Assembly: GCA_964035545.1 (NCBI GenBank)
Contig: OZ037770.1
Location: forward strand, 15,226,642 to 15,290,641
Reading direction: 5' to 3'
DNA length: 64,000 bases
Origin: Bugula neritina
Taxonomy: Eukaryota; Bryozoa; Gymnolaemata; Cheilostomatida; Bugulidae
Both the position numbers and the translations under genes were made by a program. Within the stretch, counting starts at the first letter, position 1; the number at the start of each line of letters is the position of its first letter. The notes beneath the pieces are model-generated. The model did no database searches. It had not been told where the DNA came from and worked only from the letters and a program-made list of their open reading frames with translations. Shown here piece after piece: positions 36 through 26,040 of the stretch.

Positions 36-3000
36 CATTGGCTAAGCACTGGACTACCACCACTTTAGGTTTCTGTGCCATAAGAGGAAATCTATTGGCT
101 GACAGGAGTTCAGTCACATGACTAATCTCCAGCTTGTCACCTGCTGCCCCATAAATGCTGTCGCGGCAGCCTTGACTTATGATGACCAGGAAAAACATCT
201 TGTATACGCCATGAGCTTCAATCTGCGTTTCTTCAGCAATTGCTGTTTTCATTTCCTATATAAGCAATGGATTTCTACCTTTGATAAGCTCATACATGTT
301 AGGTTAGATGCAAAGTGCTTATATATCGTTTCAGTACAAACGCAAATCTTCTCAGTTAGATTCTTAAACAGTAAAAAAATTGCATTTTAACTTAAAACCT
401 ATAATTATAGCCGCATGTTTTATATAGTTTTTTAAGATATTACTTTGTTTTATTCAAGAAATAGACAATTCAACTGTTTAATTTGCTACTTGACTTAACT
501 TAAATATACTAACTTCAGCAGTATAGCTTTTGTGTTCTCCCGTGACGACAAAGTCCAGCTTACTCAACATGTCCTTGACATTACTAAAGTCAACTTCGGA
601 ACCAACTCTGGTGTTGTTGGAACTGTTGGAGATGATTAGTGCCCTCCCTCTCGGTGAAGACATTGGGTATTTCTAAAGTAAACTCACGTGTTCAGCTTAC
701 TTCAAAATACTTTTTTGTGATGATGATTTAGCAGTGAGACTCAAAGATATGTGTAATACGTCAATCATTTGAGAGTTGCATTTAAAACTTGAAATACAGA
801 GCTTCTGGAGACTGCTACTTTTAAGACTGTCATCAGAACGCACACAGGCACATACTATATATTATATTATTGCAAAAAGTAACTGTGATTCTACAGTAAA
901 AGTATATATACTTACTAAAACTCCAGTTAGTGGTTGTCTTCTCATGTTTACATTTACCAGGTCCATTTTCATTTCGTTCTCAAGCTCATGGCTGATGAGC
1001 CAATCAAACATGGCAGATATGGCGTTCTGCTTTCGCTGATAGTCACTGATTTTAGCTAAAAACATTAAAGATACTCACTTAACTTTGCAGCAGTAGGCTA
1101 TACTGAATAATGATGTATATTTCTACCCAATAGCATATTTTGTAACAACTTAATGTATGATGATATTGATTTGATATGATGAAGTTTCATATATTTGTTT
1201 TATTAAAAATCTTTTCTATCTAACTCCATTTTCTGAATTGAAGGAAAACACTTAGCTCTTTACTGACCAGATTCTATCTCAAATAGGGAGTTCTGAAATA
1301 TTTCTTTTTCTGCTTCGTTGAGCTCTTTGCCTGAAACAAAATTTAAGCAGTTTCTAAACTTAATGTTGTGCAACTGTCAAATATGAGTCTTTTTTAAAAA
1401 TGCCTTTATTTTTTGCTCAATCATGAAACTCTTTTAAGTACCACAATCAGCAGGAATAAAGTGTTGTTTTGATATCAAGTGTCATTTAAGTAATATATAA
1501 TCTATATAATTATGTGAAATATACGTTTTATTTGGCAAATAATAAATAATATTATTAACAAGAATAATTGCCAAAATGCCTTACATACTCAACTATTTTT
1601 TAAAATTTGTTTTATCTTTTAGTGGTACACTGACAGAGATGGTGAGAAGTGTTTACAAGAATGAATACAAGAAGTTACATATGCAGATAAAATAATTGGC
1701 AAGGGTTGATGAGGGGAACTTACAGGAGAGGATGAGGAAAACTTATAGGGGTTGAAGAGGGAAGCATACGGGGTTGGGGCAAAGGAGCTTACAGGGGTTG
1801 ATGAAGGAAACCAACAAGAATAGATATACAAGCTTGCAAGGAAGAATGAGAAAAAATAAAGGGGTGAATGAGAAAAACTTACAGGGGTAGAAGAAGAAAA
1901 TTTACAGGGGTGGATGAAGGAAAGCTTACAGGGGTGGATGAAGGAAGCTGGAATCAGATCTGGATTCATAATATTTAAACATTTCCTCTCATCAACCGCT
2001 TCATTAATCCACGTAACACCAGAACTCTCTCCAGATTCAAGCACTTCTTCAATCTCGGCTAGGAAACCACTTTTCTCTAACCTACCAGGATCTGGACAGT
2101 CTTGCAGCAAGCAATGTGGACACAAATACTCACACAAATATTGTAACGCCCGCCATGATTGGTGGAGATATCTCATTATAGTCAATATGGAGTCTATAAG
2201 AACTTCCCAAGAACTGTGTATAGTGTTAGCACACGCTGATACTTTAAGCTGCATTTCGCTTTCCTCAGTCTTGTATTGCAATAAAAACTTTGTTAGAGAA
2301 TTTTGGGCCGCTAGACCATTTGAGCATGAGCTAATATTAAACGCACGCAGCCGATGTAAGTTTAGGAGTAGGATTGACATTTGATGGTACGCGTGGTGTG
2401 GTAACTTCAAACCTTTGAAAGTGAAACTTGTGCACAAAACCAGTGTACTGCCTCTAAGAAAGGAGATGTCAATTTCATGCCTTGCGAATGATGGGATCAG
2501 ATAAAGTTTTAAACCAGTTCTGCCGTCTTTGTGCTCATATAGCAAGTTGAAATGTTGAAGCATTTTGACAGCGTGTGAAAGTGCCAACTTGGATTCTGTT
2601 CTCACCAGATATTTAAACAGATGGTCGAGCAGTAAACTGGTTCTATGAAAAAAAGTCAGCCATTGCTTAAAGTCTTTCCTTTCAACCGTTGGTTCATTAT
2701 AACTTAGATATGGCTGGAAATTGTCTTCTCTAAAACTCCATTTTTTTTCTTCATCGTGGTTAAACACTATCTCAAGTAGCTCGACAATCATGTCCATATT
2801 GTGAAACACGTAGCTAGACAACTCCTCACTGTCTTCAAACCAAAGCACATACCCAGCCATATGAGCATATCGAAGGACATTTTTTATTTTAGCTTCTGTA
2901 ATGCCATCTTTCTTAAACTTAGCGTTTAGATCTCTCAGGGACAGGTGACTCGAAGTGTCAAACCTTTCTTTTTGGAGAAATTTAATAATTTTAAACCAAT

Positions 3001-4621
3001 TAAATGGAATGACTGTACGGCAATCTTTTTCTTGAATTTTATGCAATAACCGAGATGCTATCTTGTCAAATGTGGTGCTGGAGTGATTTCCTACTTCAAA
3101 AATATCTGCTTCAATGAACATCGGTTGATGTCTGTTTGTGAAGGCCTTTATTTCAACGCGACTATTACCACTTTGAAAGACTTTGGACTTCCATTGGTTG
3201 CAGGCTAATAGGAGCCGCTCTCGATAAGCAGTATAATTTGGCTCGCTAAAAGCATCTTGATGCGTGATAACGAGAATAGGGGATGTGAGTTGAGGGTACA
3301 CTAAATAGAAATGAGCAAACCAATTTACGACCAACTCCTTTGCTGCTGCCAGATCTCCGGATGCTGCCGTTAGTTGCTCAAAATGTTTCAGATTTACGAC
3401 AACAACTGGGATAGAGTTGCTGCGCAGGACAAGCTGATAAGTGGTTTGGTAAGCATCATCTCCTCCAAAATCAAATATCTGTACGGGAAGGCCGTCCAGC
3501 TCAATTTCAACAGAGCTAAACACCCGAGTTGTTTCGTCAAAAGGTGCATCTTCTTCTCTGTTTGTTAAAATTCTCATTCTACTTTTCAAGGACTGAACTA
3601 GACTGGTTTTGCCAGCCATTTTGCGTCCTACTACAGCTATGGTACATATCATGATTAGGGCTGAAGTCTCGCCTGTCGCAGCTTGGTCTCGGAAGAACTG
3701 CCTTATCTGCCCACACCCTAGATTAGCGACCCCTTCGTACGGTGGATGCTGGAGGTTAATGCAGCCATCACAGTCCAAATCAGTCAAAGTTTTAATAGCC
3801 ATCAGCTCTGGATCTAAATGCTTCAGCTCAACATTCTTGCTTATAACTAATTTCCGTAGATTTGTGAGCTGCAAAACTACTCTTGGCAATTCTACGTGAA
3901 AGCCGTTTCGTGGAATGTAGAGGCAGGACAGAGTGTCTTTACAGGCTTTCAAACTAAAAAGGAACAAAAACATTTAAATCAAATGAACTTGAAAGCTGAT
4001 TATAATACAATCTATTTGGTAATTTTCCTTTAAAGAAATTTTGGAAATTCAAAAACTTTATCCGCATTCAAAAACTGACGCAACATCAGGAGTGACTTTA
4101 GTTATTTATCAACTACAAGAGAGAAAGTACAGCTTTTATATTTCTTACTGATTTGATAATTATTACAACCTTCCAGGTAATGCTGAAAGCTCACACTTTC
4201 CAACATGAAGTTCTACAAGAGATTTTAGTCCGTAGAATATTTCTTCCGCAAGTTGCATCAGTGGATTGTCACTCAGATACAGAATCTCCAAGCTTTCTAA
4301 TCTGCAAATACTAAAATGACGTTCTGTTTTAGGATGAGCATATAGTTTGTTTCATTACCAATATTCTGTTCACATTCACACATTGTGATAACTTTGGTGA
4401 TAAAATTTCTATATTTAATTTGCAAATGGGAATACTACAAAGTTGATTTGGAAATTGCTAAATTTTAATTCTTGTGGCACAGTGAAAAAAATAACAAATA
4501 AGAAACACTATATCTAGAAAATTATATATAGGTCTATATATAATTATACCAACACATGCACGCATATACACATGCACGCATATACACATGCACGCACATG
4601 CATGCACGCACGCATGCACAT

Positions 4622-4668
<47 letters not shown>

Positions 4669-6984
4669 CACACATGTGCTAATAAAATGAAATGCGTTCG
4701 AGTCTACTTAGTGAGTCGATGATCTAAACTAATAAAACTTAAAGTTTTGAGAGGTCTACCTGGTGCAGGTATCGTACACAGATATTATACAATATCTACA
4801 GATCTACCTGGTGGTTATCATACATGACATATATCATACAGTGTCTTCAGATCTACCTGGAGGGCAGGTGGTTCATATTGTTCTTGCTGAGAGTTAAGTT
4901 TTTCAAAGAGTGTAAACTCTGGAAGATGTCATCTGGTAGCCCTGAGGAGAAGTCATTGTGACTGGTTACCAGCTTCTCTAAAGTGCTTACAAACCCGAGG
5001 CTGTGAAACAAACAATTAATATATCTCTGCTTATATCGGTGACAAATTAACAGTGAACATACAAACAAATAAATAATGTCTTGAAAAGTATATATAAGTT
5101 TAATATATATAGATATAAGTATAGTATATATTATAAATGTGTGCACAACATGTGTTTATATATATGGTATCTATTATATAATATTTACCATATAATATAT
5201 ACTATATATGTATGATATATGTTATGTAACTGACTGTAAGCATATTAACTTACCTGGTTGGTAGTGTAGTTAATTCACATCTGCCTATGTATAGTTTCCT
5301 CAAGGAGATCATGGAGTAAAACATGTCATCTGGAAGGTTGTTGAAGAAATGGTTTCTCCGTAAATCAAGTAGCTGGAGGTTGTATAATGCACACATACTA
5401 AAACATTACACAACTGGTTATACATGTATACAACAAGAAACCTTGTCAATTTACTAAAAATCCGACTACTTTCTGTGATGACTAAAGTTGAAGCAACAAT
5501 TTTACAGAAAATCATAAATTTTTTATTGAAAATTTATTTAGCAATAGAGAAAACACAATCATAGTTAAACTATAATAAAGTTTTTAACTATACATTTGTT
5601 CCATGTAAACTTTTATTCATTAAAACAATTAGACATTTTTCTTAATCTCTTGCATAGGATGCTGTTTGTTGTAGAGAGTTTTATACTGATCAACTCTGTT
5701 TAAATTAACTGTTTTCTAAAGTATTTATAACTTTGTGTTGTCAAGCCTGAAAGCTACTTTTTTACTTTAAAAACCACAAAATCAACTTTTTTATTAGCTA
5801 GGTCAACAGTGCTAAAATAAGACAGAAAATATATAAGTCAATGACAAACATACATGTTTGTAGACTGAGAACCAAGGATAATAGTTAGATTTTGGTCTTA
5901 CAACAACGTACCCACTTGACACTTTAGTCAAGCCACAACCTTGCAGCTTCAATTCTCTCAACTCCTTCATAGACCAAAACATTTTATCAGAGAGAGCATT
6001 TTCCAGCCTGTTGTTGTCTAAATATAGACAGTTTAATTGCTCCAGCCCTGTGATACTAAGAAGATGGAAATAATATGAGTATAACGAGTGTAAGAGAATT
6101 GACACAAGATTACATTTCTTAGCTAAATCAGATTTAAGGTTGCAGAGTTTAGACTATTAGTCTTAAAACTAACTAGCCACACAGCAACTAGCTGGTCTTA
6201 CTTTTTATCTCAATTTTATTTGGTAACCTAAGTTCTGTTCTTGCTACTGACATGCAAATAATGAGTGGTAATATGTAACCCCCAACCTTTCTGGGAGTTC
6301 TCTCAGCTGACAGCTACTCAAGTTGAGATGTCTCAGTGTTTGTTGGCACGACTTGAAAACACTCGGCGAAATACCAGTCGACAAATCATTTCCTTCCAAA
6401 TCTATCTTTTCTAAATACTGCAGTTTCTGTAACCTGTAGAAAAATTGCATATATCAACATTTTTATACTCACAGTAACATTTACAGTACTGCAAGATATT
6501 TGCTGCTTCAAACTTTTAAAGATTTATATAGTCTAAACATGTAGAACTTATTCTTTGAAAACATTAGGTATTTGAATAGCAGACTATTTATATTACATAA
6601 TATAGAGATAAACAATCTTGATGTTTATTAAAATTCAAGAGAGGTTGACTGATAAAACGCAATGTTACAGCATATTATTATTATTATACAAGTTATGATA
6701 AAGGCGTTGACTGTAGACTAGCGAGCTCACCTGTTTAAAGTCAGTTTAGACAGGACAACCTTTCTAATGCACAGCTCCCTTAGATATGGTGCCAGTTTGG
6801 TGAAGTTAGGCGACTCTCCTTTGAATATCATGTGAGTTATGAATGCCTCTTCATATCCTGTCAGCTCTTCCTTTATTTCGTACTTACTCTGTAATGAGCA
6901 CTTCACCTCATAGTTGAATAGAGCTGTGGTTGGTAGAGCTTGTTTAGTGTGTCTGTACCAGATGTTGTATTCTCTTACAGACAT
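36..6984 (-). CDS. Gene A: LRR-ROC-COR-caspase protein (3' end outside window)
   Basis: Eleven exons fit in phase: 6731-6984, 6287-6433, 5912-6055, 5254-5397, 4857-5000, 4170-4310, 1930-3953, 1268-1330, 958-1055, 514-672, 36-255. Order: an 85-residue unknown N-terminal domain, five single-exon LRR pairs, then a giant exon with more LRRs and a ROC GTPase. The ROC part has P-loop GRKMAGKTS, DFGG and THQD, and is followed by a COR-like region. After linkers come caspase p20 exons starting PRGRALIIS and keeping the substrate-binding Arg (NTRVGSEVD). ROCO proteins are GTP-regulated scaffolds, and caspases are Cys proteases of cell death and immunity. Here the catalytic His is Gln (SQG), and the Cys position of the QACxG motif is Leu (QCLANG), so I infer a pseudocaspase with a working GTPase. 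The p10 part lies beyond base 1. The donor choice at 1930 is uncertain because of a donor-like tandem repeat. No expression evidence is visible. Confidence 0.85.
1690..1935 (-). repeat. Tandem repeat carrying several splice-donor-like sites
   Basis: On the minus strand, degenerate units built around CACCCCTGTAAGTTTTC follow the presumed donor of gene A's giant exon. GTAAG sites follow bases 1930, 1883, 1793 and 1724, with near-misses (GTAAAT after 1906, GTATGC near 1770) between them. The reading frame stays open through the array to a stop at 1619. Any of these sites could end the exon, but not all give the same phase. I take the first, because its phase 1 matches the next exon and paralogue B. 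Confidence 0.7.
4553..4672. repeat. (CGCA)/(CACATG) microsatellite
   Basis: This is a run of CACATGCACGCATA and CGCA units in an intron of gene A, between two LRR exons. A Cys/Val-rich open frame on the minus strand is only the translation of this repeat. Confidence 0.9.
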
Positions 6985-8141: not shown

Positions 8142-11100
8142 CTAAAGGACTGCTTCTTCTGGGACCAGGAAGACCTTTCTCATATGAGTCAGACGACATC
8201 TGATCTCAGGTATCTGGCCGTAACCTCCTTCGACCTTTTTCTTTTCATAATTGTAGTTTGCACTGTACCTTGCAACCACCTGCTGAATCTACAAACATTA
8301 GGAGTATGAAAAGTACTGGAGAGCACATTGAAGGTTGCTATTAGTATAATGAATGGCACTAGCAGGTTGTTATTAGTATATTGAATGACACTAGCAGGTT
8401 GTTATTAGTATAATGAATGGCACTAGCAGGTTGTTATTAGTATGATGAATGACACTAGTAGGTTGTTATTAGTATGATGAATGGCACTAGCAGGTTGTTA
8501 TTAGTATGATGAATGGCACTAGCAGGTTGTTATTAGTATGATGAATGACACTAGCAGGTTGTTATTAGTATGATGAATGGCACTAGCAGGTTGTTATTAA
8601 TAATATGATGAATGGCACTAGCAGGTTGTTATTAGTATGATGAATGACACTAGCAGGTTTTTATTAGTATGATGAATGGCACTAGCAGGTTGTTATTAGT
8701 ATGATGAATGGCACTAGCAGGTTGTTATTATTATGATGAATGGCACTAGCAGGTTGTTATTAGTATGATGAATAACACTAGCAGGTTGTAAGCCTAGGGC
8801 CACACTGTGCGTATTTTCGCATGCGAAAATTAAAATCACGAGTAGCAAAGGTGTCCACTGTAGCGTCAGTGATGCGTGATAAATAAAGCTTTCATTTTTA
8901 AATCGCACTCGCTTTCAATAAAACGCAATTTACTGGAATATAGCACTAAATAAAGAAATTGGGCTCGCTGAATAGCTACCAGCCAATTAGGTGACTACGA
9001 CAGAGACGATTCGCACTTGCGTTGAAAATGCAGAGCGACAAGTGCGAAGGTTTTCTCAACGCGCACAGTGGACACCTTTGCTACTTGTGATTTCAATTTT
9101 CGCATGCGAAAATACGCACAGTGTGGCCCTAGGCTTAGTATGATGAATGGTAGTCAGCAATGAGCAATGCAGATGCTTTTACTGTGTTAGCTGTCAGCCA
9201 TAAGACAGAATAGGGGAAGATCAGCTTTAAAATTGAGCCAAAACATAAACAGCAGCCATAACAGTCATATTTTTTGCACGATAATTGTAGGCCTATCACT
9301 ATATTATCTGTATATGCAGCTTAACATGAAAACATAACTCCAACAGCATGGCCTATATATTTTTGCTATGTTTTAGTTACTGCCCAGATAGAAATAATCT
9401 AGCAAGCAATAATGTTACTGTCACAAATTCTGAGTGTACATATACCTATGAATAGACTTACGGGGTTTTTCCTAATGATTATACACGAATGTTCATAAAT
9501 ATTCTAGACTGATCAAAGAAATGGGTCATTGTTCATTGTTACTGTTTTGGTTAGTCATGTTAACTACTGCCCAGCAATGTAAACAAGGTATTGCGCAATA
9601 ATTGCGAAATAACCATGGAAATTCCAATGTTTTGTTTTGTTTTGATTCTCTATAAATAGTATTGGCATGTGGGGAATGTTTCCTACTAGAATCTTCTATA
9701 CTGGAATGCTTGAGAATGTTCTAGAGTTTTTTGTTTACTATAAATACTGAGGCAGTTGTGTTTACGAATCAGTTCATTCTTGGAGTTCATTTTTATTAAT
9801 TCATCTGTGCATATCTTACTAAAGGAATAAAGTCTACTTATATCCACAACTCTATTTACTCACAACTGGATTAGCAAGCTGTATGCTACTTGTCTCTACA
9901 CTTCTGACTACCAGACTTTTCGAACTCGTCACACTGCTACCAACAGTTTTGTGACAATTGGGGGCTGCTCCGGGAAGTCTCAGTCGCACACAGGGAAGTT
10001 ATTAGTTACAACGTGAGTATACACAGGATTAATTAACAGTTGTTGAGACATTATGGCGTTGTTGGAAAGAGTGACACAGATGGGTAAAGATCTTGGACTG
10101 GTGGATGACAAGCTCATAGCTTTTGTTGAAAAGAACCTACCCATTTTTGCTGCACAAGAAGAAAAAGAAAAGGACCGAGAGGAAAAAGAAAAGGACCGAG
10201 AGGAGCGGAGATTAGAGCGTGAGGCGGAAAGGATCAGGCAAGAAAATGAGAAAGCCTTAATGGAGATGAAGATAAAAGCTGACCAGGAGGCAGAAGAGAG
10301 AAGACAACGGCATGAATTAAATATGGAAAAGCTGAAAGCTGACACAAGTTTGGAGCACTCAAGACATGAGAGCACCAGGTTAGAAATAGCTAACAAACCA
10401 AAACCAAAAATACCATTCTTTGATGAGAAGGTGGATGAAATGGATAGCTATTTAGAGCGGTTTGAGTGGGTTGCCGAAGGATGTAACTGGGACAAGGGAG
10501 ATTGGCCCTACCATCTCAGTCAGTACCTAAGGGGTACGGCAACAGAAGCTTACATCCGGTTGTCACCTACCGATCGTAGAGATTATAAAAAAGTCAAAGA
10601 AGCCTTGTTGGAGCGCTTTAACTTGACTCAAGAGGGCTACAGAAAAAAGCTCAGAGAGGCAGAAGCTTACGAGGATGAAACTCCTGCCCAACTATTCACT
10701 AGGATAGAAAGTTATGTGCACAAGTGGGTGGAGCTTTCAGGGGGCATGGACATAGCCAAACTAGTGGCGACTGAACAATTTATATCATCATGCCCAGACG
10801 ACCTAGCTGTGCATTTAAAGCAAAGTTCCTACAACAGCAGTGAGGATATGTGTGATGCAGCGTCGCTGTTCTTGCACGCTCGTGGAAGGAAACTAGCAAA
10901 GACAAAGAAAACTAATACAAAAAGGATGGAAAACACACCTGCCGGTAGCATGAATGCTGAACAAGGAAGTAAAAGCGATGGGGCATGCTTCATCTGCAAA
11001 GATAAGTCACACATTGCTCGTAACTGCCCACGGCGAGGGAAGAAGTACTGTTCACATTGCAAGATGAACAACCACAATACGTCAGACTGCAGAAAGTATG

Positions 11101-14100
11101 GTGGGAGGTCAGTGCATGCTGCTGCTGCAATAGGGACTACTCAGAATAAGACTGTGGTCATAGATCCAGGAATCTCATCTAAAGTGGAAGAACCTACAGA
11201 AATCATAGTTAATGGTAAAAAGTTTGTCAACGCTGCTGTCTGCAAGAATGGACCTAAATTCAAAGATGGGGGCACAGCGATATTTGATGCGGAAGTTAAT
11301 GGCCAACGAGCTACTGTAATGCGCGACACCGGCTGTGGTTGCATTGTAGTCAATGCAAAGTATGTGCAACCTCAACACTTGACTGGAGAATCAGTTTATC
11401 TGAATATGGCTGATGCAAGTGTTAGGGAGGCTCAGTGGGCACTTATCTCAGTGCGCTCACCATTTTACAATGGTGTCGTCAAAGCTGCAGTAATGGACAA
11501 GACGATTTGTGACCTGCTTATTGGGAATGTGGACGGAGCAAGATCAGCTGACCAGCCGCTAGAAAACTGGAAGGACTGCGCCGTAACCACAAGAGCTCAA
11601 GCTGTCAAGGAGAAGTCAGGAGACAAACCACTAATGATTGATTCAAATGCTAACCCATTAAGTATAGGGAAAGATGAGATAGCCAGACTGCAGAGGGATG
11701 ACCCCACATTGGAGCGTTTCTTCGATGCAAAAGAAGTGAAGGAGAAAAAGGGATGCACCACTAGGTTTGTGGTGAGGAATAAGATTCTGTACCGTGAGTA
11801 CACCGACTCCGAGTCTGCCAGTGTAAAACCCGTTAAACAACTCATGGTACCCAGTTCACTGAGGAAGGAAGTTCTACAGAAAGCTCATGACTGCACAATG
11901 AGCGGACACCTAGGAGTAAAGAAAACCACTGATAGAGTGCTTTCCAACTTCTTTTGGCCAGGACTAAACGGAGATGTCGTACGTTTCTGTCAGTCATGTG
12001 ACATTTGCCAGAAGACGGTGAAAAAAGGCTCAATCATGAAAGTTCCAGTACAGGAAACTCCACTAATTGACACCCCATTCAAGAGATGTGCAATAGACCT
12101 AGTCGGACCAATTAACCCTCCAAGTGAGAAAGGACACCGCTACATCCTAACTTTAGTTGACTATGCTACAAGATACCCTGAAGCTACACCATTGAAGAAC
12201 ATTGACTCAGCTACTGTAGCTGAAGCGCTGCTTGACATATACAGTCGTGTTGGGATACCAGAGGAGGTGATAAGCGACCAAGGAACTCAATTCATCTCGG
12301 ACTACATGAAAGAGTTTACCAGATTACTTGACATGCGACAACTTCCTACTTCACCATACCATGCAATGGCCAATGGACTTGTGGAAAAGTTCAACGGAAC
12401 CCTCAAGAGTATGTTAAAAAAGTTGTGTGCTAAAGAGCCAAGACAGTGGCATCGATTCATCAATGCGGCTCTATTTGCATATAGAGAAGTCCCACAGGAA
12501 TCAACAGGCTTCGCCCCATTCGAGTTACTCTATGGAAGAACTGTACGTGGACCAATGTACATCCTGCGACAACTTTGGACAAAGGAAGACACTGCCGATG
12601 AAGTCAAGACCTGCTATCAACATGTTTTTGAATTGAGAGAGCGTTTAGATGACATGATGGAAATGGCACTAGCTTCGCTAAAAGACAGTCAAAAAAGATA
12701 CAAACACTATTTTGACAAGAAAGCTAAGCAGAGAGACTTCAAACCTGGTGACAAAGTGCTCATTCTTCTACCTACGGATGGAAATAAATTGCTGATGCAT
12801 TGGCAAGGACCATTCAATATTGAGGAGAAAGTCAGACTGAATGACTACATTATCAACATTAGAGGCAAGAGGAGAACATACCATGCCAACATGCTGAAGA
12901 AATACTTTGAACGGGAGACGCCTACCGACTCTATGACTGCTGGAGCTGTGAGGACTCTAGATGCTGCTGGTGCTGGAATTATTGATCACGATAAGGAAAG
13001 AGAAGAAAGCCAAGATGATTTGTTGGACCTGTACAGTAAGAAACAGCAGAATGATGAGATGGGCTATGTATTTACAGAACTTCAGAATCAAGGTGGAGTC
13101 AATCAAAGGAAAGGACAATGTTGGAGCCGATTATCTAAGCCGAATTGACTCAGAATTTTAAGTAGTTAGGAGAAATGATCAAGATAATTTCTCTTAGAAT
13201 GGGGGGTTGTCACAAATTCTGAGTGTACATATACCTATGAATAGACTTACGGGGTTTTTCCTAATGATTATACACGAATGTTCATAAATATTCTAGACTG
13301 ATCAAAGAAATGGGTCATTGTTCATTGTTACTGTTTTGGTTAGTCATGTTAACTACTGCCCAGCAATGTAAACAAGGTATTGCGCAATAATTGCGAAATA
13401 ACCATGGAAATTCCAATGTTTTGTTTTGTTTTGATTCTCTATAAATAGTATTGGCATGTGGGGAATGTTTCCTACTAGAATCTTCTATACTGGAATGCTT
13501 GAGAATGTTCTAGAGTTTTTTGTTTACTATAAATACTGAGGCAGTTGTGTTTACGAATCAGTTCATTCTTGGAGTTCATTTTTATTAATTCATCTGTGCA
13601 TATCTTACTAAAGGAATAAAGTCTACTTATATCCACAACTCTATTTACTCACAACTGGATTAGCAAGCTGTATGCTACTTGTCTCTACACTTCTGACTAC
13701 CAGACTTTTCGAACTCGTCACACTGCTACCAACAGTTTTGTGACAGTTACTGAAAATAATAAAAATGATTTTTCAAATAAAGATTTTAATTGTTCAACTG
13801 TTAGAAAAAGAATAAAATCTAGCAAGATATTAAAATAACAAAAAGTTTCAGTTTAAAAATACTTTATTTTTAAACTGAATTTTAGTGAAAATAGACACAT
13901 AGTTTGTTACCATTTTGAAAAGGGTGTGAAGATCAAGTTGATGAGCGTATTGGTAGAAGGCGACCACAGAGGCTCGTATTAACCAGGACCCAACTTTCTT
14001 GTCCCTGAAGGCTACATATCCTGATAGAAATAGGCTATAATTGTTAGTGTTTCAACATTTACTAGAATAAAACTAAAACTAAAAATACATGATACTAGTA

Positions 14101-17100
14101 ACTATTTGAGTAATACTGAATCGGTGTGATTACCACAATTAGTTCTAGCTTGTCGTCTGCTATAACTTAGCAATTGAAAAAAAATAAATGTTTTAAACTA
14201 ACTATTTTTTGATGGTCAAGTTCAAGTGCCATTCTACGCATGCAGTCATTTTACCTAATTTAGTACACATTGGAAATCTCTAGTTTTTAGCTATTTCTTA
14301 CAATTTAGCTGCTAATAAACATGGGTTTTTGCTCAAAACTAGTAAAATGTCAATAAATACACCTAAATAATTTGGTTCGTTTTAATCTTGCTTGATTTCT
14401 CATGTTTTTCCTAATTATTCAGCTACTTTTAATTGCGGACACAATCAAATAGCTGCCTCAAAGTCAGCAGTAGTTTACCTGGCTGACTCGCCTTAATCAT
14501 CAACAAGTCGTCTCCTGCAAGAACTTCATTCTGGTTTGACTTGACAGGTTCAGTGTTGGAGGCCCCAGAGCTTCTAGGAAGAAAGAGAGTGACTTAAGTT
14601 ACCATAGATATAAGGTACAGCTTTATATGTCTAAGTGACTATATTATTTAGTTTAATCAAGTGTTGGCATAAGTAATTTTGACTATAGCATCGTAAAAAC
14701 TACTACCACTCGTGAGTTATACTATACAGTGTATGCTGAAAGTGAATTACACATAAATATGCTAATAAATTTGTTATAGTAGAGTATGTACAGCATGTTT
14801 GACTCATTATCCCAGGTATTCATGGTGTCGCTGAAAGAGATCCACTGCTCTTCTGAAAAGCTTGGGTCCTCATCTACGCTCCCCTCACTACTCTCTTCAA
14901 ACTCATCATGGTCATCAGGCAAATCGACTAGACTGTCCTTGTTAACTAGAATGTTATTTTGAGCATTAAAAAATAATAAACAGCTGGAACAAAACTACAA
15001 TAAAACAAAGCTTAAAGGATTGCTCTATCTTGTCTAATAAATGGCCATTTAGGTAAAACACACATAATATTGTGTTTTTCTAAGCATGCATTGACAAAAA
15101 GCATTTGACCAAAGGTAGAAAAAGTTAGTTGAAGTTGAGGGTGTAGATTGGTAACAGCCAAAACGCCGATTTTGAAATGAGCTGGGAACTGTGACGTAAC
15201 AGCGCCAGCATTCCTGCTGGTCACGTGACTATACAAATGAATAACTATAGAAATATGACTGTGAGATGTAATCTTTTAGCTTGCAATTTGTATATTTATA
15301 GAAGTGCAAATGTGAATTATCTCAATCTATAGTTTTTTGACATTTTAAATAACATGTATGTGAAAACATTAGGCTATATTTTGCTTGTAAACATTAGAAA
15401 AAAGCCTTGCAAAAACATGCATTCTTTAGGATGAATGCCTGCGATCGATCTAAACTAAGTCAGATCGTGCAATATTACGGGCACACCAAAGCTGACCTAT
15501 ATAGCGCACTGTAACTGCTTGAGCGTAATTGGTTGATGTTGTGCCCAGCAACCTTGAATACTAGCGTTATAGTTAGCACGTGCAGCATAGTTACTGGCGT
15601 TCACACGTCACGTATTAGGCTATTCTTTTTCATGGCTGAAAATTTTACCTCCCTCAAAATTGGAATTTTGAAAAGCTGTTTTCTAGGCACATATCCCTTT
15701 GCAAAGCCACAATTGTTTGCATACACATTAGATTATAGTTCATAATTATAATGTGATTGTAATAAACTAAGATAGAGCAATCCTTTAAGGGGGCAATGCA
15801 AATGTAACAGATTGCAGCAATACATATAATCTGTTTGTGGCAAATTGAGTTAAATATGAAGCACAACCTGTATGTATGTTAAAGCATGTCTCACCAAACA
15901 TGTTGCGGTTGTGCTTTTCAATAAATAAATGCAAAACTAAACTCTGTGTAAAGATTTACAATCACCCTAAGAATAAATAAAATATACCTCCAGAGCAACT
16001 TTGTATGATCACAACTTTGGGTTTTCCTGTCATGGCAGGAAAATTCTTCGGGGAGATCAAACTCAACAGATCATCCATGGAAACCTCGTCATCTGGTCCA
16101 CCACATCCGCCAATCTTATCTTTCCTTCCATGACTCATTAAGACCAGAAAGAACATTTTGTATGACTCATGCTCCTGGAGGCGACTCTCTTGAATGATTG
16201 CTTCTTTCATCTCCTGTAAAGATTTAAGTAAGTAGTGTTGGAAACTCAAGCTCATGCACTATATTGGTTTATAAAAACAATGGTCTCAGTCTCAACCTAA
16301 AATAGCATTATACCGTAAAATACAAAATTTTTCACTTTTTTTAGTGTTGAAGGTTTTTAGTGTTTGTGAGTGCAATTACTTTAAGAATACTAAAATAGTA
16401 TTATTGATGATCGTTCTTTCTAATTATCTACCAGACAATTGTTAAAGATCGCAGCAGCTTGTCAACAATGAAATATGCTTTAACCACAAAGAGCATGTGT
16501 GTCATTGATTATATAAATTCCTTACTTATATAGTAATACGTAAAATGATGGTTATATAATAGTTTTGCTAAACAGAAGTGGTGTGGTGGTTCGTGGAACT
16601 ACCAGCAGCACAACATGTAGGGTCGCGTAATTGACCCGGAACAATGGATAGCCAATTAGCGTATTCGATAGTTAGCAGCAATTATAGTTTCCTGCTGCTA
16701 AGTCAGTCGAAGCTAGAGTGTCAAATAGATTAGATGTGTAAATTGTCTGAATATATTGTATCGTTTTTATAATGTATAATTGTGTGTAAAATATACTCGT
16801 TCACTCGACTTATCCTGGTGCAGTTCTATAGCGAATAAGTAGACTCTCTGGATAGCATATCAACCCTAAATCTGGAAAACATAACAGTACTACATAAACA
16901 ACCTTGTGCTCACCTCAGCAGTGTAGTCTTTGTGTTCTCCTGTGACGACAAAGTCCAGCTTACTCAGCATGTTCTTGACATTCTGAAAGTCAACTTCAGA
17001 ACCAACTCTGGTGTTGCTGGAACTATTAGAGATGATTAGTGCCCTCCCTCTGGGTGAAGACATGGGGTAAACTTGAGGCATCTGCAATTTTAGAAAAAGT

Positions 17101-20100
17101 CAAATATTAGTCCTAAAGTCTTTCTCAAGTAGTTCAATTACACAAATTACCTACAACATATGACTTAGATTTACCATTCTAGCATCTACTTCTAAATCAT
17201 CTTCATCTAGTTTTCTCTTTCTTTTCCTAGAATAAAAATCTTTTGGTTCCATGATGATTTCAGCCGTGTTCTCATTCTCAGCCAGCCATCCTGCAATCTT
17301 TTTGATAGCTGTGCCTCGGGCAGTGTACTCGTTAGCTTCATCTACAATTCATAATCGCGATTCAGAAAAGATTTTCTAGCTGCATTTTATATTTTATAGC
17401 TGAAGTATTTGGAATTTAGTGGATTAATACAATTTAACTAGTACTACTACTACTGCTTAAATGTCCATCTTGTATGTCATATCATTACAATAAGAAACTT
17501 TGATATTGAAGAGGTATTAAAATTTGAAAGATATTATATGCATGAGTTGTTCAGCCAGAAACTCACATTTCTCCAGAAACTGGTACAGCTTTTCTTGATC
17601 TTCAAAGCTCAGATCTTGGCCTGAACATAAAGTTATGTATTTGTTATGCTAATGTTTTAATGACATGCCATTTATATATGCTGTTTTGTCATAATAATAG
17701 TATCTAGATGCTAATTCTGCTATACCCAATATAAATTCAAACAGTCTATGACAGGAATTTGATAAAAATACTAACACAATTTTCTATGCAGCTGTAAAGC
17801 TGCTGTTGTTGCACCAATCATGCATTGATTTCAATTCTAGAAAGTTGCACAGCTTCAATGCAAGGAAAACGAATGACAAGGTCTTCTCACGTAGAGAAAA
17901 TCATGACTCATCAAACAGGTCATCAGTAATATTGGTGCAACAAAGTTTAAAAAAGTTCCAAATTTTATGGCAATACTCACAAGGCCACACCAGGACACTC
18001 GGGACATCGCCAACTCCTGAAAAACATGTCACGCTGTAGAGCGGATCTGGGGAGAATGTCACACCTATAGACTCAGACAGAGAAATGTTCTCCATCAGAC
18101 TGTTTAGGAAACAAGCATTGCTGACTTCTTCTAGCTTGTGAGGATGAACCAGGAGACAATGAGGGCAACAGAACCTACATCGGCTGACTACAGAAGGACA
18201 AAGTTTCCGGAGTGTTTGAATCACAACCTTAACTGAGCGAAGAAGCCGTTTCCATGTGTTATGCATACTTTCTACATGAATTGAGCTCAATAATGTTATG
18301 TAATTATGGTTCCAGTCGTAAACAGCTTGAAGCTCCCACAAGTGGCCTTTCCGAATTGTCAGGCCATTGTGAAAAAGATTTAACGAGTTATCTGTATGAT
18401 GAAGCGTTTGTAATATAGATTGACCTAACGAATAATACATGTGTTTCAGCAGAGGGATATTATCAAAGAAGACATCTATGCGGAGTGATGGCTTTTCAGT
18501 AACCCAATCTTTGGAAGTCTTTGAGGGTAGCAAGGAGGGAATCACGTACTGCACTAAATTTTTATCTTTTTCAGCTCGGCTATCTTTCCTAATAATTAGT
18601 TCTAATACTATTTCCAACTCCTTCAAAAGTTCAATAGCCACTTCGGTTGGGAAATCAGATTCAGAGTTGATGATATGCTCAAGAAGCTGAACTGGCATCA
18701 CTCCTGTCTTTTGAAACATTTCAATTGATCTTCTTATCTTCCTGTCAAAAGTAGCTCCTTCATTGTCTGAGTCGCAGTAAATTGCTTCCAACATTTGTTC
18801 TGAATTAGGAGAGAAGAAAAGTTTTATTAACTTATCAACAATCTGCAGCCTATGAAAGACATGAGTAGAGAGCTTTGATCTGTTAGAAAACCACACCAAA
18901 AATCCAGCACGCTGAGCTACTTTTAATGCTTCTTCAACTTTACTCAGGCGAAATTCGGAAAATCTTTTCAGCAGAATTATGAGCTCAATACTAGTTGCAT
19001 GGCTGAAACTTTCATCGGTAACGAAGTTGACTATGTCTTGAGCAAGCAATGGAAGCTGGCAGGAAGCAGCTTGATTCACTCTTTGTTTGATGGCGCATGT
19101 CAATTCCAACGGCGGACTCATTTGCTTATTTAAAAGAAAGACACTGTCATCTGTAAACATGTGCTGCGAAGTGCTAGCACCAATAAAATTTTGCTCTAAG
19201 CTTGTGCAGCACTCTAGCAGTTTGTTTGCGTACATGGTGAATTCATTGTGACAAAATCTTCCTTTATTTGTCATAACCAGAATGGGCGCTATAGTCAGTT
19301 TACTTGATTGCCTCAAGAAAAACCAATATTTCAGCAAAACATGTTTAGCTGCTTCCTCATAACCTACCTGGAGAGATTGTTTATGGTACTGGCCGATGTC
19401 TACTACAAGAAGTGTTAAACATGAGTCATGGTGCCATAACTTTCTGTAGGCAGCATAAATGTCATCCGATATGTTGAACGCTCGAATTGGGCAACCGTTA
19501 ACTTCCCAGCGCTGCTCCTGAAAACATTCTTCTATGCCATCAAACAGCAGCCTGTTTTCACAAGCAAAACTTTGCCTTAGCAAGTTTATTACCTCTATTC
19601 TTTCTGAATTCTCGAGTCCCAATACAAAGATAGATGTGGTTACCGGCCTTTGACTAATGACGAGTCTTTCAAAGTGCTGTCGGATTCTCTCCCAACCATC
19701 AGAAGCTGACTGGTAAGGTGGCTCTTTGAGTTGGGGACACTCTCTGCAGTCCAGCTCTGTTAAACATGTTAGCTGCAGAATTTCTGAGCTTAAAGACTTC
19801 AATTGACTGTTGGCAGTGAGTACTAGTCGCTGTAATCTGGTCAGCTGGTACACAACTGGTGGTAAAACTTGACTGAACAGGTTATTCTGAAGTTGAAGAA
19901 CCTTGAGAGTGCCAGCACTAGCTTGTAAGCTGAAAGCAAACCGCATTTCTAAGTTTTAAAGCAAAATATCAGTTTTTGAAACCAGAAAAATTCATTAAAA
20001 TACCATGTTTTGATCATTGATCTCAAAACATTTTATATACATTCAGATGCACGTACTAATGTACACGCGTATACACGTGTATACTAGTAATTTTCATAAG

Positions 20101-22507
20101 TCTACCTGCTTGGCAATGTTTCAAGCTCGCAATTCTCTAAATACAACTCGGAAACTTGACTGAGCTTTTTGAATGCATGCTCTGGCAGTTCTTTCAGAGG
20201 ATTGCTCCCAAGGTGAAGGATCTTTAGACTTGTCAGATTAAACAAACTACAAATGTTTCAAAGAAATCATAATTAAAATTGCTAAAAGTGAATTGTAAAG
20301 AAGTAACAATGGACTCGGTTTCTGACACTGTCCTCTAGTGATAATGTTTAAATAGTAGGTGTTTTCAACTAGTAATTACTAAGGCTCAAAACTATAGTCA
20401 GATAGAGAAGGGAAAGCTTCAATCGGTTCAGACTGGTTGTAGCTTATAGTTAGAATTTGCTATATACTGTAATTTAGTTGATTATAGCTACTTCAAGCTA
20501 AACAAGATCCTATGTTGATTTTAAACCACAGCATGTGAGTATGCCCACAGTATGAAGGTAAACTTACCTCTCAGGTAGTGTAGTCATCCCGTTAGAAGTC
20601 AATTGCAGACTTTTAAGAGAGTTCAAATTTGAAAAGACTTGATGAGGCAAACCAGATGAGAAGTTATTGTTGCTCAATGAACAAAATTCTAAGAGATGTA
20701 ATGAAGATAAGCTAAAAATAAATTAACAGACACCATGTTTTATAGAGTCCTGCGCACTTCTGTTGTGAATTAAAGTCTTCAATTTTACTAAATTCAATTA
20801 AAAAAGTTTAAATTGAATATTAGATACTATATTATACTGGACAATTTTGTTGCTAGAGTAGTAATAAGAATAATGACCTTGATGGAAGGACACGGAGCTG
20901 GCAGCTATCTAAATATAGTTTCTTCAGCGACTTCATTGAAAGAAATATGTCATCTGGGAGACCAGAAGAGAATGAATTGTGTTTAACATCAAGCACTTCT
21001 AGTTGGCCGAGGGGACTGAAACTAAAACACAAATTGCTCAATTAGAAACGATTAAAACATTTAGTGACTTACTATTCGGGATTTGCATCAGTCATCATAA
21101 CCATAAGGAATTTATTATACAATTCTTTGGAAAAACCAACGCAACTTTTTCGAATTATTGGAACACAGAAGTTAACATGTACCTGTGAGGGAGCTCTGTT
21201 AAAGAGCAACCCTGCATGTTAAGCTTCTTCAACCCCTTTAAACACTGAAAGATTCTCTCCACAGAGTTTACTGACAAAACGTTTTTCTCCAAATTAAGTC
21301 TCTCCAAGAAGGAAAGCTCTAGCAGACTGTAAAGAATACAAAGAAAGGTTGCTATGCAAACAATCATACACAAATGGTAAAATCAGCAAGCTAAAAAAAA
21401 ATCGTAAGTTGTTTTCTGGCATTTGATACTGTGATAATTTAGTAAGCTATTTGATAATTTCTATGGCTAAAATGCAAGCTGGAGATTCAAACCGAAATGG
21501 GAGATGCATTTACGCTGAAGTTTAGGAAACTGTGTAAAGCTACAGACCTTGCCGGAAGCTCCATAAGTCCGCAATCATTCAGGTTAAGAGTTGTCAGACT
21601 TTTCAGACAGGATTTGAAGGTGTTTGGTGGAAGTCCAGCTGACAGATTGTTACTCTCTAAATCAATATTTTCTAAGCTCTTGAACTTCTGGAGTCTGAAA
21701 AGTTTAAAATCGGTAGGATTGTTATTGTCTATGGTCAATGCTAAATAACATAACTACGTTTTCATAGCTGAATTTACAGTGGAATAAAATGCATGCATCT
21801 TAAACGAAGTTTATCTTTCTGGGAATATCTCGCTGAATATATAGGACTGCATTAAATGTATCAACCTTGGTTAATTTCAAACCAACTAATGGTCTTTTCC
21901 TCTTTGAATAAAAAATTGAAATCTATTTAAGAGTAATTACTACACATTGTATGATAGTGATACATCTTTTTACTACTATATATAGCTACTCACAACCATT
22001 CAACATGAAAATAGTATTTGCTTGCAAGCAGGCACGCTCAACCGTTACACCATAGGGCAACTGGACAAACTTAGCACTATACAATATCAATTTACTACAG
22101 CTATAAAAATCTGCAAAAGCAAACTAGTTAATGAAATGATGTACCAAATTAGATCTAATAAATCCTGATTCATGAAAATCAAAAGTATCACAGAGGAGAT
22201 AACTTCAGAATTGAAGGGGAAACTGTTGTCATGTGATTAGAGATGGAGATTACCTTTTAAGGACGCCGACACTGGATATTCCTCTAACACAGATCTCTCT
22301 CACAGTCCTGGTGACGGCAGGAAACACCGGTATGTCACCCATAACCAGTATGTGTGTGATTTCATAGTTCTGTCCGTCTCCTTTCAAACTCTCTTTGACC
22401 TCTGACCTCGTGAGATTGCTGCATTTAGCCAAGTAGTTGGATATGTGAAGCACAGGCTCCGGCTCTCCGGTGTGTATGAACCAGATCTTGTAAACGTCTT
22501 CTTCCAT
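8142..22507 (-). CDS. Gene B: LRR-ROC-COR-caspase protein, complete
   Basis: Fifteen exons keep phase and total 1347 codons: 22254-22507, 21548-21694, 21183-21326, 20878-21021, 20568-20711, 20106-20246, 17981-19929, 17567-17620, 17175-17341, 16914-17081, 15988-16213, 14792-14945, 14479-14573, 13911-14020, 8142-8288. The layout matches gene A exon for exon, with the first six exon lengths identical. The caspase domain is complete: substrate Arg (NTRVGSEVD), catalytic His (MSHGRKD), Cys in IIQSCSGG, an acidic linker, and p10 with GYVAFRDKKVGSWLIRA. I infer an active Cys protease. The ROC part has lost the P-loop (GLENSERIEV), the DxGG and the NKxD-type motif (TNKG), so GTP binding is doubtful. 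Exon 9 has a basic stretch (RKRKRK) that could be a nuclear signal. No CARD or DED is seen, so the LRR-ROCO part replaces the usual prodomain. The last intron (5.6 kb) is swollen by a retrotransposon. Confidence 0.88.
8334..8789. repeat. 32-bp minisatellite, about 14 copies
   Basis: The unit is TTGTTATTAGTATGATGAAT followed by GRCACTAGCAGG, with few substitutions (TATAATGAAT/TATGATGAAT, GGCAC/GACAC). It lies in the last intron of gene B. The array resumes with a partial unit at 9137 after the inserted MITE, so it predates that insertion. Confidence 0.95.
8790..9136. mobile_element. Palindromic MITE with ~70-bp terminal inverted repeats
   Basis: The left end AAGCCTAGGGCCACACTGTG continues through TATTTTCGCATGCGAAAAT and GTAGCAAAGGTGTCCACTGT. 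It is mirrored by the right end, which finishes CACAGTGTGGCCCTAGGCTT. The arms match with few changes over about 70 bp around a ~200-bp centre without coding capacity. It splits the minisatellite. Target duplication cannot be read clearly because the flanks are repetitive. Confidence 0.85.
9419..9956 (+). repeat. 5' LTR
   Basis: TG...CA ends. It contains a TATAAATAG promoter-like box near 9651 and an AATAAA signal near 9825. It matches the 3' LTR at 13208-13745 in length and, as far as read, in every base. Confidence 0.95.
9959..9976 (+). other. Primer-binding site, tRNA-Pro-like
   Basis: TGGGGGCTGCTCCGGGAA starts two bases after the 5' LTR. It resembles the site complementary to the 3' end of tRNA-Pro (TGGGGGCTCGTCCGGGAT in murine gammaretroviruses) with three mismatches, so the exact primer is uncertain. 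Confidence 0.55.
10053..13148 (+). CDS. Gag-protease-integrase polyprotein of the LTR element
   Basis: 1031 residues. Residues ~30-115 are a charged coiled coil. Residues ~120-280 form a capsid with a SCAN-like stretch (FNLTQEGYRKKLREAEAYED); SCAN is known to derive from Gmr1-type Gag. Two CX2CX4HX4C zinc knuckles follow at ~312-346, then a retropepsin motif (MRDTGC, ~424, with DLLIG later). Integrase has an HHCC finger (HDCTMSGHLG...CQSCDICQ, ~611-655) and a DD35E core: D in CAIDLVGP, D in SDQG and E in GLVEKFNG, with exactly 35 residues between the last two. A GPY/F-like tail (WQGPFNIEEKV) follows. No reverse transcriptase motif exists. The last ~35 residues are out of frame with an RNase H end (RWAMYLQNF...GKDNVGADYLSR) readable in the next frame to a stop near 13160. 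Confidence 0.92.
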   Translation: MALLERVTQMGKDLGLVDDKLIAFVEKNLPIFAAQEEKEKDREEKEKDREERRLEREAERIRQENEKALMEMKIKADQEAEERRQRHELNMEKLKADTSLEHSRHESTRLEIANKPKPKIPFFDEKVDEMDSYLERFEWVAEGCNWDKGDWPYHLSQYLRGTATEAYIRLSPTDRRDYKKVKEALLERFNLTQEGYRKKLREAEAYEDETPAQLFTRIESYVHKWVELSGGMDIAKLVATEQFISSCPDDLAVHLKQSSYNSSEDMCDAASLFLHARGRKLAKTKKTNTKRMENTPAGSMNAEQGSKSDGACFICKDKSHIARNCPRRGKKYCSHCKMNNHNTSDCRKYGGRSVHAAAAIGTTQNKTVVIDPGISSKVEEPTEIIVNGKKFVNAAVCKNGPKFKDGGTAIFDAEVNGQRATVMRDTGCGCIVVNAKYVQPQHLTGESVYLNMADASVREAQWALISVRSPFYNGVVKAAVMDKTICDLLIGNVDGARSADQPLENWKDCAVTTRAQAVKEKSGDKPLMIDSNANPLSIGKDEIARLQRDDPTLERFFDAKEVKEKKGCTTRFVVRNKILYREYTDSESASVKPVKQLMVPSSLRKEVLQKAHDCTMSGHLGVKKTTDRVLSNFFWPGLNGDVVRFCQSCDICQKTVKKGSIMKVPVQETPLIDTPFKRCAIDLVGPINPPSEKGHRYILTLVDYATRYPEATPLKNIDSATVAEALLDIYSRVGIPEEVISDQGTQFISDYMKEFTRLLDMRQLPTSPYHAMANGLVEKFNGTLKSMLKKLCAKEPRQWHRFINAALFAYREVPQESTGFAPFELLYGRTVRGPMYILRQLWTKEDTADEVKTCYQHVFELRERLDDMMEMALASLKDSQKRYKHYFDKKAKQRDFKPGDKVLILLPTDGNKLLMHWQGPFNIEEKVRLNDYIINIRGKRRTYHANMLKKYFERETPTDSMTAGAVRTLDAAGAGIIDHDKEREESQDDLLDLYSKKQQNDEMGYVFTELQNQGGVNQRKGQCWSRLSKPN
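13030..13161 (+). pseudogene. RNase H C-terminal remnant
   Basis: In the frame shifted from the main ORF, RWAMYLQNFRIKVESIKGKD and NVGADYLSRI match the conserved end of Ty3/gypsy RNase H. It ends at TAA near 13159-13161. The deletion that removed RT and the rest of RNase H must join somewhere near 13030-13050. Confidence 0.8.
13193..13207 (+). other. Polypurine tract before the 3' LTR
   Basis: TTAGAATGGGGGGT abuts the 3' LTR and is the expected site of plus-strand priming. Confidence 0.7.
13208..13745 (+). repeat. 3' LTR
   Basis: 538 bp, the same length and, by eye, the same sequence as the 5' LTR. It is followed by target duplication GTTAC at 13746-13750. Confidence 0.95.
15011..15789. mobile_element. 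Long MITE-like element, ~20-bp inverted ends
   Basis: CTTAAAGGATTGCTCTATCT at the left is the exact reverse complement of the right end AGATAGAGCAATCCTTTAAG. Weaker pairing extends further inward. The 779-bp interior has no coding domain. It lies between the p20 exon and the following linker exon of gene B. No clear target duplication is visible. Confidence 0.7.
16570..16860. repeat. Possible solo LTR or unclassified repeat
   Basis: This intronic block of gene B differs in composition from its surroundings, with GTGGTGGTTCGTGGAACTAC near 16583 and CTCGTTCACTCGACTTATCC near 16796. That is reminiscent of LTR ends. I find no second copy, no clean TG...CA ends and no target duplication, so the class is open. 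Confidence 0.25.
22018..22062 (-). other. tRNA-like relic
   Basis: On the minus strand, GCCCTATGGTGTAACGGTTG followed by AGCGTGCCTGC resembles a tRNA 5' half with a D-arm/A-box. No convincing T-arm/B-box follows. It is probably a SINE head or tRNA pseudogene in the first intron of gene B. Confidence 0.35.
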
Positions 22508-24113: not shown

Positions 24114-24182
24114 CTTCTCATTACTCCATATATAAGCAATCAGATCATATAGTCTCTCTTTAAGCCTGATTCCACCGTACTT

Positions 24183-25832: not shown

Positions 25833-26040
25833 AGTCCATAAAACTGCATGCGAAGTGGTTAAGTGAACTTGGCTTTCGCGTTACCATGTTCTCTCTCTCG
25901 GCAGGGTGTAAATGGGATCTAGCGGCAAGAACAGGTCAAGACATGCTAGCATTTACAACCTGCTGCAGTGGCTGGCCGTTATACACGTTTGTCTGTACAC
26001 GCCCTTGAGGGCATACATATTGGCACAGAATATATTATAT

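Follow-up and report, generated by a model that had tools for sequence, protein, structure and literature searches.

A candidate bryozoan family of leucine-rich repeat, ROC-COR and caspase fusion proteins, with a tandem gene pair on chromosome 6 of Bugula neritina

Can a single animal gene join a ROCO-type GTPase to a caspase? The question is raised by a 64-kb stretch of chromosome 6 in Bugula neritina, a bryozoan (C6:15226642-15290641; hereafter the window), in which a first-pass annotation noticed two minus-strand genes, here called A and B, that seemed to read from leucine-rich repeats (LRRs) through a ROCO region of ROC and COR domains into a caspase. This continuity was borne out for both genes, which can be read from LRR through ROC-COR to caspase in phase and free of stops through every modelled junction, with several splice sites set by hand. 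Equivalent arrangements recur across the Bugula genome, and single annotated proteins of the bryozoan Watersipora subatra match the family, Peptidase_C14 included. With moderate confidence, and from sequence comparison, we propose that these genes form a family of bryozoan proteins in which LRRs, ROC-COR and a caspase share one chain and which would act as death or immune receptors, genes A and B being tandem members.

Both genes were modelled with 15 exons on the minus strand, gene B from 22507 to 8145 and gene A extending beyond the window's left edge. The outer limits previously assigned to the pair were correct: the second p20 exon of gene A (p20b) finishes at position 36, and the ATG that opens the first modelled exon of gene B lies at position 22507. 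The modelled exons within the window are as follows.

Gene A
6731..6984, minus strand, exon N; start codon uncertain, upstream exon possible, without a Pfam match
6287..6433, minus strand, LRR exon 1; phase 2 boundaries
5912..6055, minus strand, LRR exon 2; splice model
5254..5397, minus strand, LRR exon 3; splice model
4857..5000, minus strand, LRR exon 4; splice model
4167..4301, minus strand, LRR exon 5; splice model
1930..3953, minus strand, giant exon with the LRR end, ROC, COR and a CPHC motif; 3' end hand-set from homology
1268..1330, minus strand, linker exon x1; start hand-set
958..1055, minus strand, linker exon x2; splice model
514..672, minus strand, caspase p20 exon a; splice model and homology to gene B
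36..255, minus strand, caspase p20 exon b; SQG at the His position, QCLAN at the Cys position

Gene B
22254..22507, minus strand, exon N; start codon uncertain, 36% identical to that of gene A over 72 amino acids (aa)
21548..21694, minus strand, LRR exon 1; splice model
21183..21326, minus strand, LRR exon 2; splice model
20878..21015, minus strand, LRR exon 3; splice model
20568..20711, minus strand, LRR exon 4; splice model
20106..20246, minus strand, LRR exon 5; splice model
17981..19929, minus strand, giant exon with the LRR end, ROC-COR with G1, G3 and G4 lost (putative pseudo-GTPase) and CPHC
17567..17620, minus strand, linker exon x1; splice model
17175..17341, minus strand, linker exon x2; 3' end hand-set
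16914..17081, minus strand, caspase p20 exon a; splice model and alignment with PDB caspases
15988..16213, minus strand, caspase p20 exon b with SHG and QSCSG; 3' end hand-set
14792..14945, minus strand, acidic p20-p10 linker exon x3; both ends hand-set
14479..14573, minus strand, linker exon x4 and p10 start; splice model
13911..14020, minus strand, p10 exon (GSWLIRA); splice model and alignment with PDB caspases
8145..8288, minus strand, last p10 exon, past a long terminal repeat (LTR) element; start at 8288 or 8282

The five LRR exons of gene B measure 138-147 bp each, with phase 2 boundaries throughout. Spliced gene A yields a product of 1482 aa with zero stops and a frame open at all modelled junctions, and it extends about 2.3 kb into the neighbouring stretch (L014) with linkers, p10 and the last p10 exon, the p10 exons lying 1.5-2.3 kb left of the window; spliced gene B yields 1343 aa. 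The statement that p20 is present in both genes and p10 in gene B therefore stands, with the additions that the last p10 exon of gene B lies beyond the LTR element and that gene A has a p10 outside the window. The LTR element is a retrotransposon (9419-13745) in the last intron of gene B, antisense to the gene, with a gag-pol-like frame on the plus strand at 10047-13148. Its two LTRs (538 bp each, 9419-9956 and 13208-13745) are 100% identical, which marks the insertion as young.

Splice sites were assigned mostly by an automatic, home-made scorer working on chosen exon blocks, and some were replaced by hand because the scorer's picks hit stops or departed from the homologous site. In gene A the 3' end of the giant exon and the x1 start, where the scorer's best path differed, were set by hand; the hand-set sites of gene B, for which the scorer's own path gave stops in the product, are the ends of x2, p20b and x3. 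The intron that directly follows gene A's giant exon (1724-1930) carries a repeated CCCCTGTAAG-like motif, amounting to a run of donor-like sites.

Because the scorer picks sites that keep the frame, the evidential weight lies in identical phases at homologous places, and little can be drawn from a path having been found. The model of a paralogue (locus L019) has phases 1,1,0,0,1,1,0 between its giant exon and its final one, and gene B shows the same series plus a further intron, of phase 2, in the linker between p20 and p10. Splice models were tried at 17 of the 19 paralogous loci fetched (all except L031 and L032), of which two lacked an exon match and two gave no path. In all 13 modelled loci the boundaries linking the giant exon, x1, x2, p20a and p20b have phases 1,1,0,0, and the p20b exit has phase 1 in 12 of the 13, although some x1 matches were weak (expectation value, E, as high as 0.77 in L027). 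The 19 paralogues had been picked for a good Roc match, so members with a dead Roc domain, such as gene B, are under-sampled.

The genome searched comprises 215.8 Mb in 295 contigs, compared with 216.0 Mb in 320 scaffolds given for tzBugNeri2.1 in the available portion of its publication (PMC11480708), which points to the absence of a few small pieces. The Roc profile search scored 150 of 338 candidates and retained the 39 rows whose open frame is 450 aa or longer, dropping the others; the Peptidase_C14 search returned 176 matches, of which our counts use only the matches listed, and all genome-wide family counts are lower bounds. Among the matches listed, 30 of the 39 long-frame Roc loci have a same-strand caspase match 2.16-4.16 kb downstream, and none of the 39 has an upstream or opposite-strand one within 8 kb. 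Caspase exons were found downstream in 18 of the 19 fetched Roc loci, 14 belonging to the 30 and four being additional: nine Roc loci have no listed caspase match within 6 kb, and of the five of these that were fetched, four (L016, L018, L020 and L030) do have caspase exons. The remaining one, L031, shows retroelement-like frames and no caspase exon within the 10 kb covered. Altogether, evidence for ROCO plus caspase was obtained at 40 loci or more (the 30, L016, L018, L020 and L030, L012, L034, L036 and L037, and genes A and B), for 16 of them by coordinates alone.

The caspase matches listed fall into 120 clusters, a rough count obtained by merging matches within 5 kb. When five clusters without a listed Roc link were fetched, three proved to have a ROCO giant exon upstream and two an ankyrin-repeat exon. 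The ankyrin-repeat giant exons (L035:3535-6480 and L038:3426-5210) are followed by caspase exons on the same strand, and such ankyrin-caspase arrangements are perhaps a second receptor-like fusion in the Bugula genome. Strong Roc/Rab-like matches were also seen on the small contigs C58, C90, C99, C210, C144 and C36 (L001-L003 and L005-L008); in seven of the eight fetched loci of this kind TAA or TAG occurs in frame while TGA is absent, and they probably derive from a contaminant with reassigned stop codons.

When residues 323-1297 of gene B were used as a protein query, none of the 7998 candidates scored reached E <= 0.001; later searches with the family alignment and the L019 model did find protein matches. 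The L019 model (1066 aa, giant exon through p10) is matched by three annotated Watersipora subatra proteins: P0036 (1386 aa; 37% over 99% of the model), P0037 (1337 aa; 35% over 86%) and P0043 (917 aa; 34% over 79%). Peptidase_C14 scores above its cut-off in all three, and GK[ST], HG and QACSG are readable in each; P0036 is labelled MFHAS1-like in a public source. The N-termini of P0036 and P0037 are MG leaders (MGAKSSKD and MGCSLSRR) that we take to resemble myristoylation or palmitoylation signals, hinting at membrane anchoring. One simple pattern was tried near genes A and B for an MG...S leader exon like Watersipora's, and no convincing candidate emerged.

Pfam searches of the spliced products recognised Peptidase_C14 in gene A (positions 1-213 of 233, E = 9.3e-24) and in gene B (positions 1-229 of 233, E = 2.1e-35, reaching into the last p10 exon), as well as LRR_8 in gene B (E = 3.3e-23). 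The PDB matches of the gene B caspase are animal caspases (caspase-9, caspase-3 and CED-3), the closest chain being caspase-9 (E = 1.2e-18). The predicted domain order was thus recovered in part by Pfam, with the caspase in both genes and LRRs in gene B, but Roc was not recognised in gene B and fell below the cut-off in gene A. Gene B's ROC-COR region was located by profile alignment, in which a profile of gene B and the metagenome protein P0001 aligned with the family profile over 644 columns, nearly end to end (E = 2.5e-49). P0001 is 87% identical to the giant exon of gene B over 648 aa, has an open frame of 681 aa, and probably represents the gene B ortholog of another Bugula. Among 21 giant exons, Roc was found in 20, gene B being outside the 20, and COR-A in nine (E <= 0.01), in L037 above the cut-off. 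The family profile matched four known ROCO proteins, including one from amphioxus and two bacterial by name, with E = 2.3e-42 across LRR, ROC, COR and the CxHC motif. Against PDB it retrieved LRRK1, LRRK2 and a 'Rab family protein', which we take to be a bacterial Roco, ranked behind several LRR-only proteins. No CARD, DED or Death prodomain was matched by Pfam in gene B, in the linkers of A and B or in their N exons; a Death-domain remnant suspected by eye in the linkers had no such match and was dropped.

Within this family, genes A and B have lost different activities, as judged by motif. The GTPase motifs of gene A are present (G1 GRKMAGKT, G3 DFGG and G4 THQD), and its caspase has Gln in place of the catalytic His (SQG) and Leu at the Cys position (QCLAN), so that both catalytic residues are lost; QCLAN aligns with the active-site stretch of PDB caspase-4/-11 chains, which themselves read QAARG. 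In gene B, SHG and QSCSG align with SHG and QACGG of caspase-9, and the catalytic His and Cys are kept, while the G1, G3 and G4 sites read GLENSERI, NISDD and TNKG and the GTP-binding motifs are lost. GK[ST] is kept in 31 of 33 aligned sequences, the exceptions being gene B and P0001 (GFENLERM) only, and these two also lack DxxG and the G4 Asp. The loss in the tandem pair is, on these motifs, complementary, gene A keeping GTPase motifs without caspase His and Cys and gene B keeping His and Cys without G1, G3 and G4. The second p20 exon could be read in 17 paralogues; of these, 13 keep both His and Cys and four have lost Cys, with Tyr in L016 and Ser in L030, L032 and L033, the frame being open there.

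In a phylogenetic tree, gene A was sister to gene B plus P0001 with support of 100/98. The branches are long (1.58 changes per column for gene A and 4.35 for the stem of gene B and P0001), and the program warned that such joins may be false; the tree had one long-branched outgroup and left out five of the 19 paralogues, L034, P0043 and P0018-P0035. A and B are probably sister genes. Their p20a exons share 89% DNA identity over 161 bp, a likeness that neither the flanking introns nor the other exons show, and their p20b exons share 43% protein identity. The ratio of nonsynonymous to synonymous substitution rates (dN/dS) between the two p20a exons is 0.17 over 156 bp, which argues that the caspase of gene A is not simply decaying in that exon. 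We infer that p20a was homogenised between A and B and then came under selection.

How might such proteins work? Caspases are activated upon dimerisation, COR dimerises and ROC reads GTP, and c-FLIP, a dead caspase, is able to activate caspase-8. On the reading we favour, the LRRs would sense a ligand or partner, and GTP loading of ROC together with COR-mediated dimerisation would draw the caspase domains together. The animal-type caspase, switched on by proximity, would cut its targets, and the outcome could be a death or immune response without CARD, DED or an adaptor. The description of a GTP-switched protease suits many family members by motif, but fully suits neither gene of the pair, given that A lacks the catalytic His and Cys and B the GTPase motifs. 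With less assurance, A might serve as switch and as a FLIP-like activator or brake and B as enzyme, the two acting together. A bolder version, which we consider speculative and rather unlikely, makes A and B an obligate pair in which A switches B in trans through COR and caspase heterodimers, within a repertoire of dozens of one-chain caspase receptors whose exchangeable LRR-ROCO or ankyrin sensors would do the work that falls to NLR-adaptor-caspase relays in other animals.

Several observations weigh against a functional family of this architecture. The phases depend on the home-made scorer, the chosen blocks and the hand-set sites of A and B, and the first coding exon of both genes is unsure. 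Neither ROC nor COR of gene B has a Pfam match in the giant exon or the spliced protein, and the giant exon of gene A scores 25 bits for Roc and 29.7 bits for COR-A, below the curated cut-offs of 27 and 35.3. The Watersipora proteins score 22.8, 20.4 and 14.7 bits for Roc, all under the 27-bit cut-off, and LRR models pass their cut-offs in P0036 only. A structure prediction of gene B's giant exon had a predicted local distance difference test score (pLDDT) of 36.6 and was not used. Twenty-six metagenome proteins of 620-735 aa that are close to the L019 model show no caspase; their length suggests that each is one giant exon predicted as an intronless gene, and they offer no proof of the joint. 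As for the pairing of A with B, the evidence is their complementarity and tandem order.

That the unit consists of a ROCO gene and, behind it, an independent caspase gene, members of two adjacent families kept together but transcribed apart, is very unlikely in our judgement. Another start could in principle reach the caspase exons, but strand, order, spacing and phases are alike at many loci, the Watersipora proteins are annotated as one chain, and no listed caspase match lies upstream or on the opposite strand within 8 kb of any of the 39 Roc loci. Transfer of a bacterial LRR-ROC-COR-caspase gene into bryozoans also seems very unlikely. This architecture has been reported in bacteria (PMC8195603), but the Bugula genes are intron-rich throughout and lie on an animal chromosome, their caspase matches those of animals, and the best named non-bryozoan match is an amphioxus MFHAS1 homolog.

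The remaining alternatives concern what the genes do. A and B could be decaying, half-dead pseudogenes of an otherwise working family: a key activity appears lost in each, the branch of A and the stem of B are long, a young LTR element sits in B's last intron and a long interspersed nuclear element (LINE) just upstream of B. We nevertheless regard decay as fairly unlikely, given that frames are open across 15 modelled exons in both genes, that P0001 combines B's motif losses with its open frame (although a protein-set search favours open frames), that the p20a dN/dS is low, and that four of the 17 other members likewise lack Cys with an open frame there. A slightly stronger but still doubtful case can be made for developmental or signalling regulators, acting for example in larval settlement or in polypide degeneration and renewal, with the caspase used for limited cutting. 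Caspases do have non-death roles and MFHAS1-type ROCO proteins signal without killing; the clustered expansion with two sensor types, LRR-ROCO and ankyrin, resembles a recognition repertoire instead, which is only suggestive. Death or immune receptors remain the function we favour for the family.

Other features of the locus were noted by eye. The LINE-like element occupies 22686-25880 on the minus strand, with an endonuclease-like frame at 25880-24183 and a reverse transcriptase frame at 24182-22686, and its end lies some 180 bp upstream of the ATG modelled for gene B. Frames rich in Thr, Pro and Ala, partly mucin-like repeats, lie on the plus strand at 34221-35912, 42743-45847, 51165-51638 and 58918-60762. 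About 4.0-4.5 kb left of the window, on the minus strand of L014, are exons that we take to resemble a RABL6-type GTPase and that perhaps mark the next gene past A.

If the proposed reading is true, an animal cell-death protease would be coupled to a Ras-like switch within one chain, without an intervening adaptor. The family would then provide a simple system in which to ask whether ROC-COR dimerisation can gate enzymes besides kinases, which is relevant to LRRK2-type proteins, and it would show an animal using an architecture until now predicted in bacterial defence. Whether an inactive caspase and an inactive GTPase can complement one another could be tested on the A/B pair as a natural case. 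Some 120 caspase clusters, a rough figure from the matches listed, would be a very large caspase repertoire for a 216-Mb genome.

The first-pass annotation knew of no described family with a ROCO prodomain on a caspase. This holds for metazoans, in that we found no ROCO-caspase family named in the titles, abstract openings and passages of the top-ranked literature results, but it does not hold in general. According to Kaur et al. (2021), bacterial LRR-AP-GTPase-COR proteins can end in any of at least 24 domains, caspase being one of them (PMC8195603), and Zhang et al. (2008) describe LRRs-caspase hybrids in amphioxus (PMC2575513). The main text of the Flustra bryozoan genome paper never uses caspase, LRR or immun (PMC13326412). 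As far as we have seen, then, the kind of architecture is already known, and its animal form with expansion and a split pair is apparently undescribed.

The bacterial proteins resemble the family in having N-terminal LRRs, a ROC-type GTPase, COR and a C-terminal effector that can be a caspase; whereas these conflict proteins are bacterial and, in the accessible text, predicted, those of Bugula are encoded by multi-exon animal genes with an animal-type caspase and in large copy number (PMC8195603). The amphioxus LRRs-caspase and TNFR-caspase shortcut proteins likewise place receptor repeats directly on a caspase, theirs keeping QACXG, but no ROC-COR switch is named for them in the text available ('Roc' as a whole word occurs 0 times), a distinction drawn from description only (PMC2575513). 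Combinations of ROC/COR with TIR are known from sea anemones and Aplysia, according to the portions consulted (PMC5094078, PMC9334734). Brown-algal LRR-ROCO candidate immune receptors share phase 2 LRR exons ahead of ROC-COR, but they have one 72-bp exon per LRR, with shuffling reported and caspase unmentioned in the available passages, in contrast to LRR exons of 135-147 bp in Bugula (Teng et al., 2024, PMC11378527). MFHAS1 (MASL1)-type animal ROCO proteins are like the family in combining LRR-ROC-COR without a kinase and with a CxHC motif after COR, the Branchiostoma belcheri MFHAS1 homolog being the best named non-bryozoan match (27% over 38%). They lack a caspase, however, and at its C-terminus the amphioxus homolog has a Death domain where the Bugula family has a caspase. 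Finally, the proposed pairing of A and B would parallel that of c-FLIP and caspase-8, in each of which a dead caspase stands beside an active one, but whereas c-FLIP and caspase-8 carry DED prodomains, A and B carry LRR-ROC-COR.

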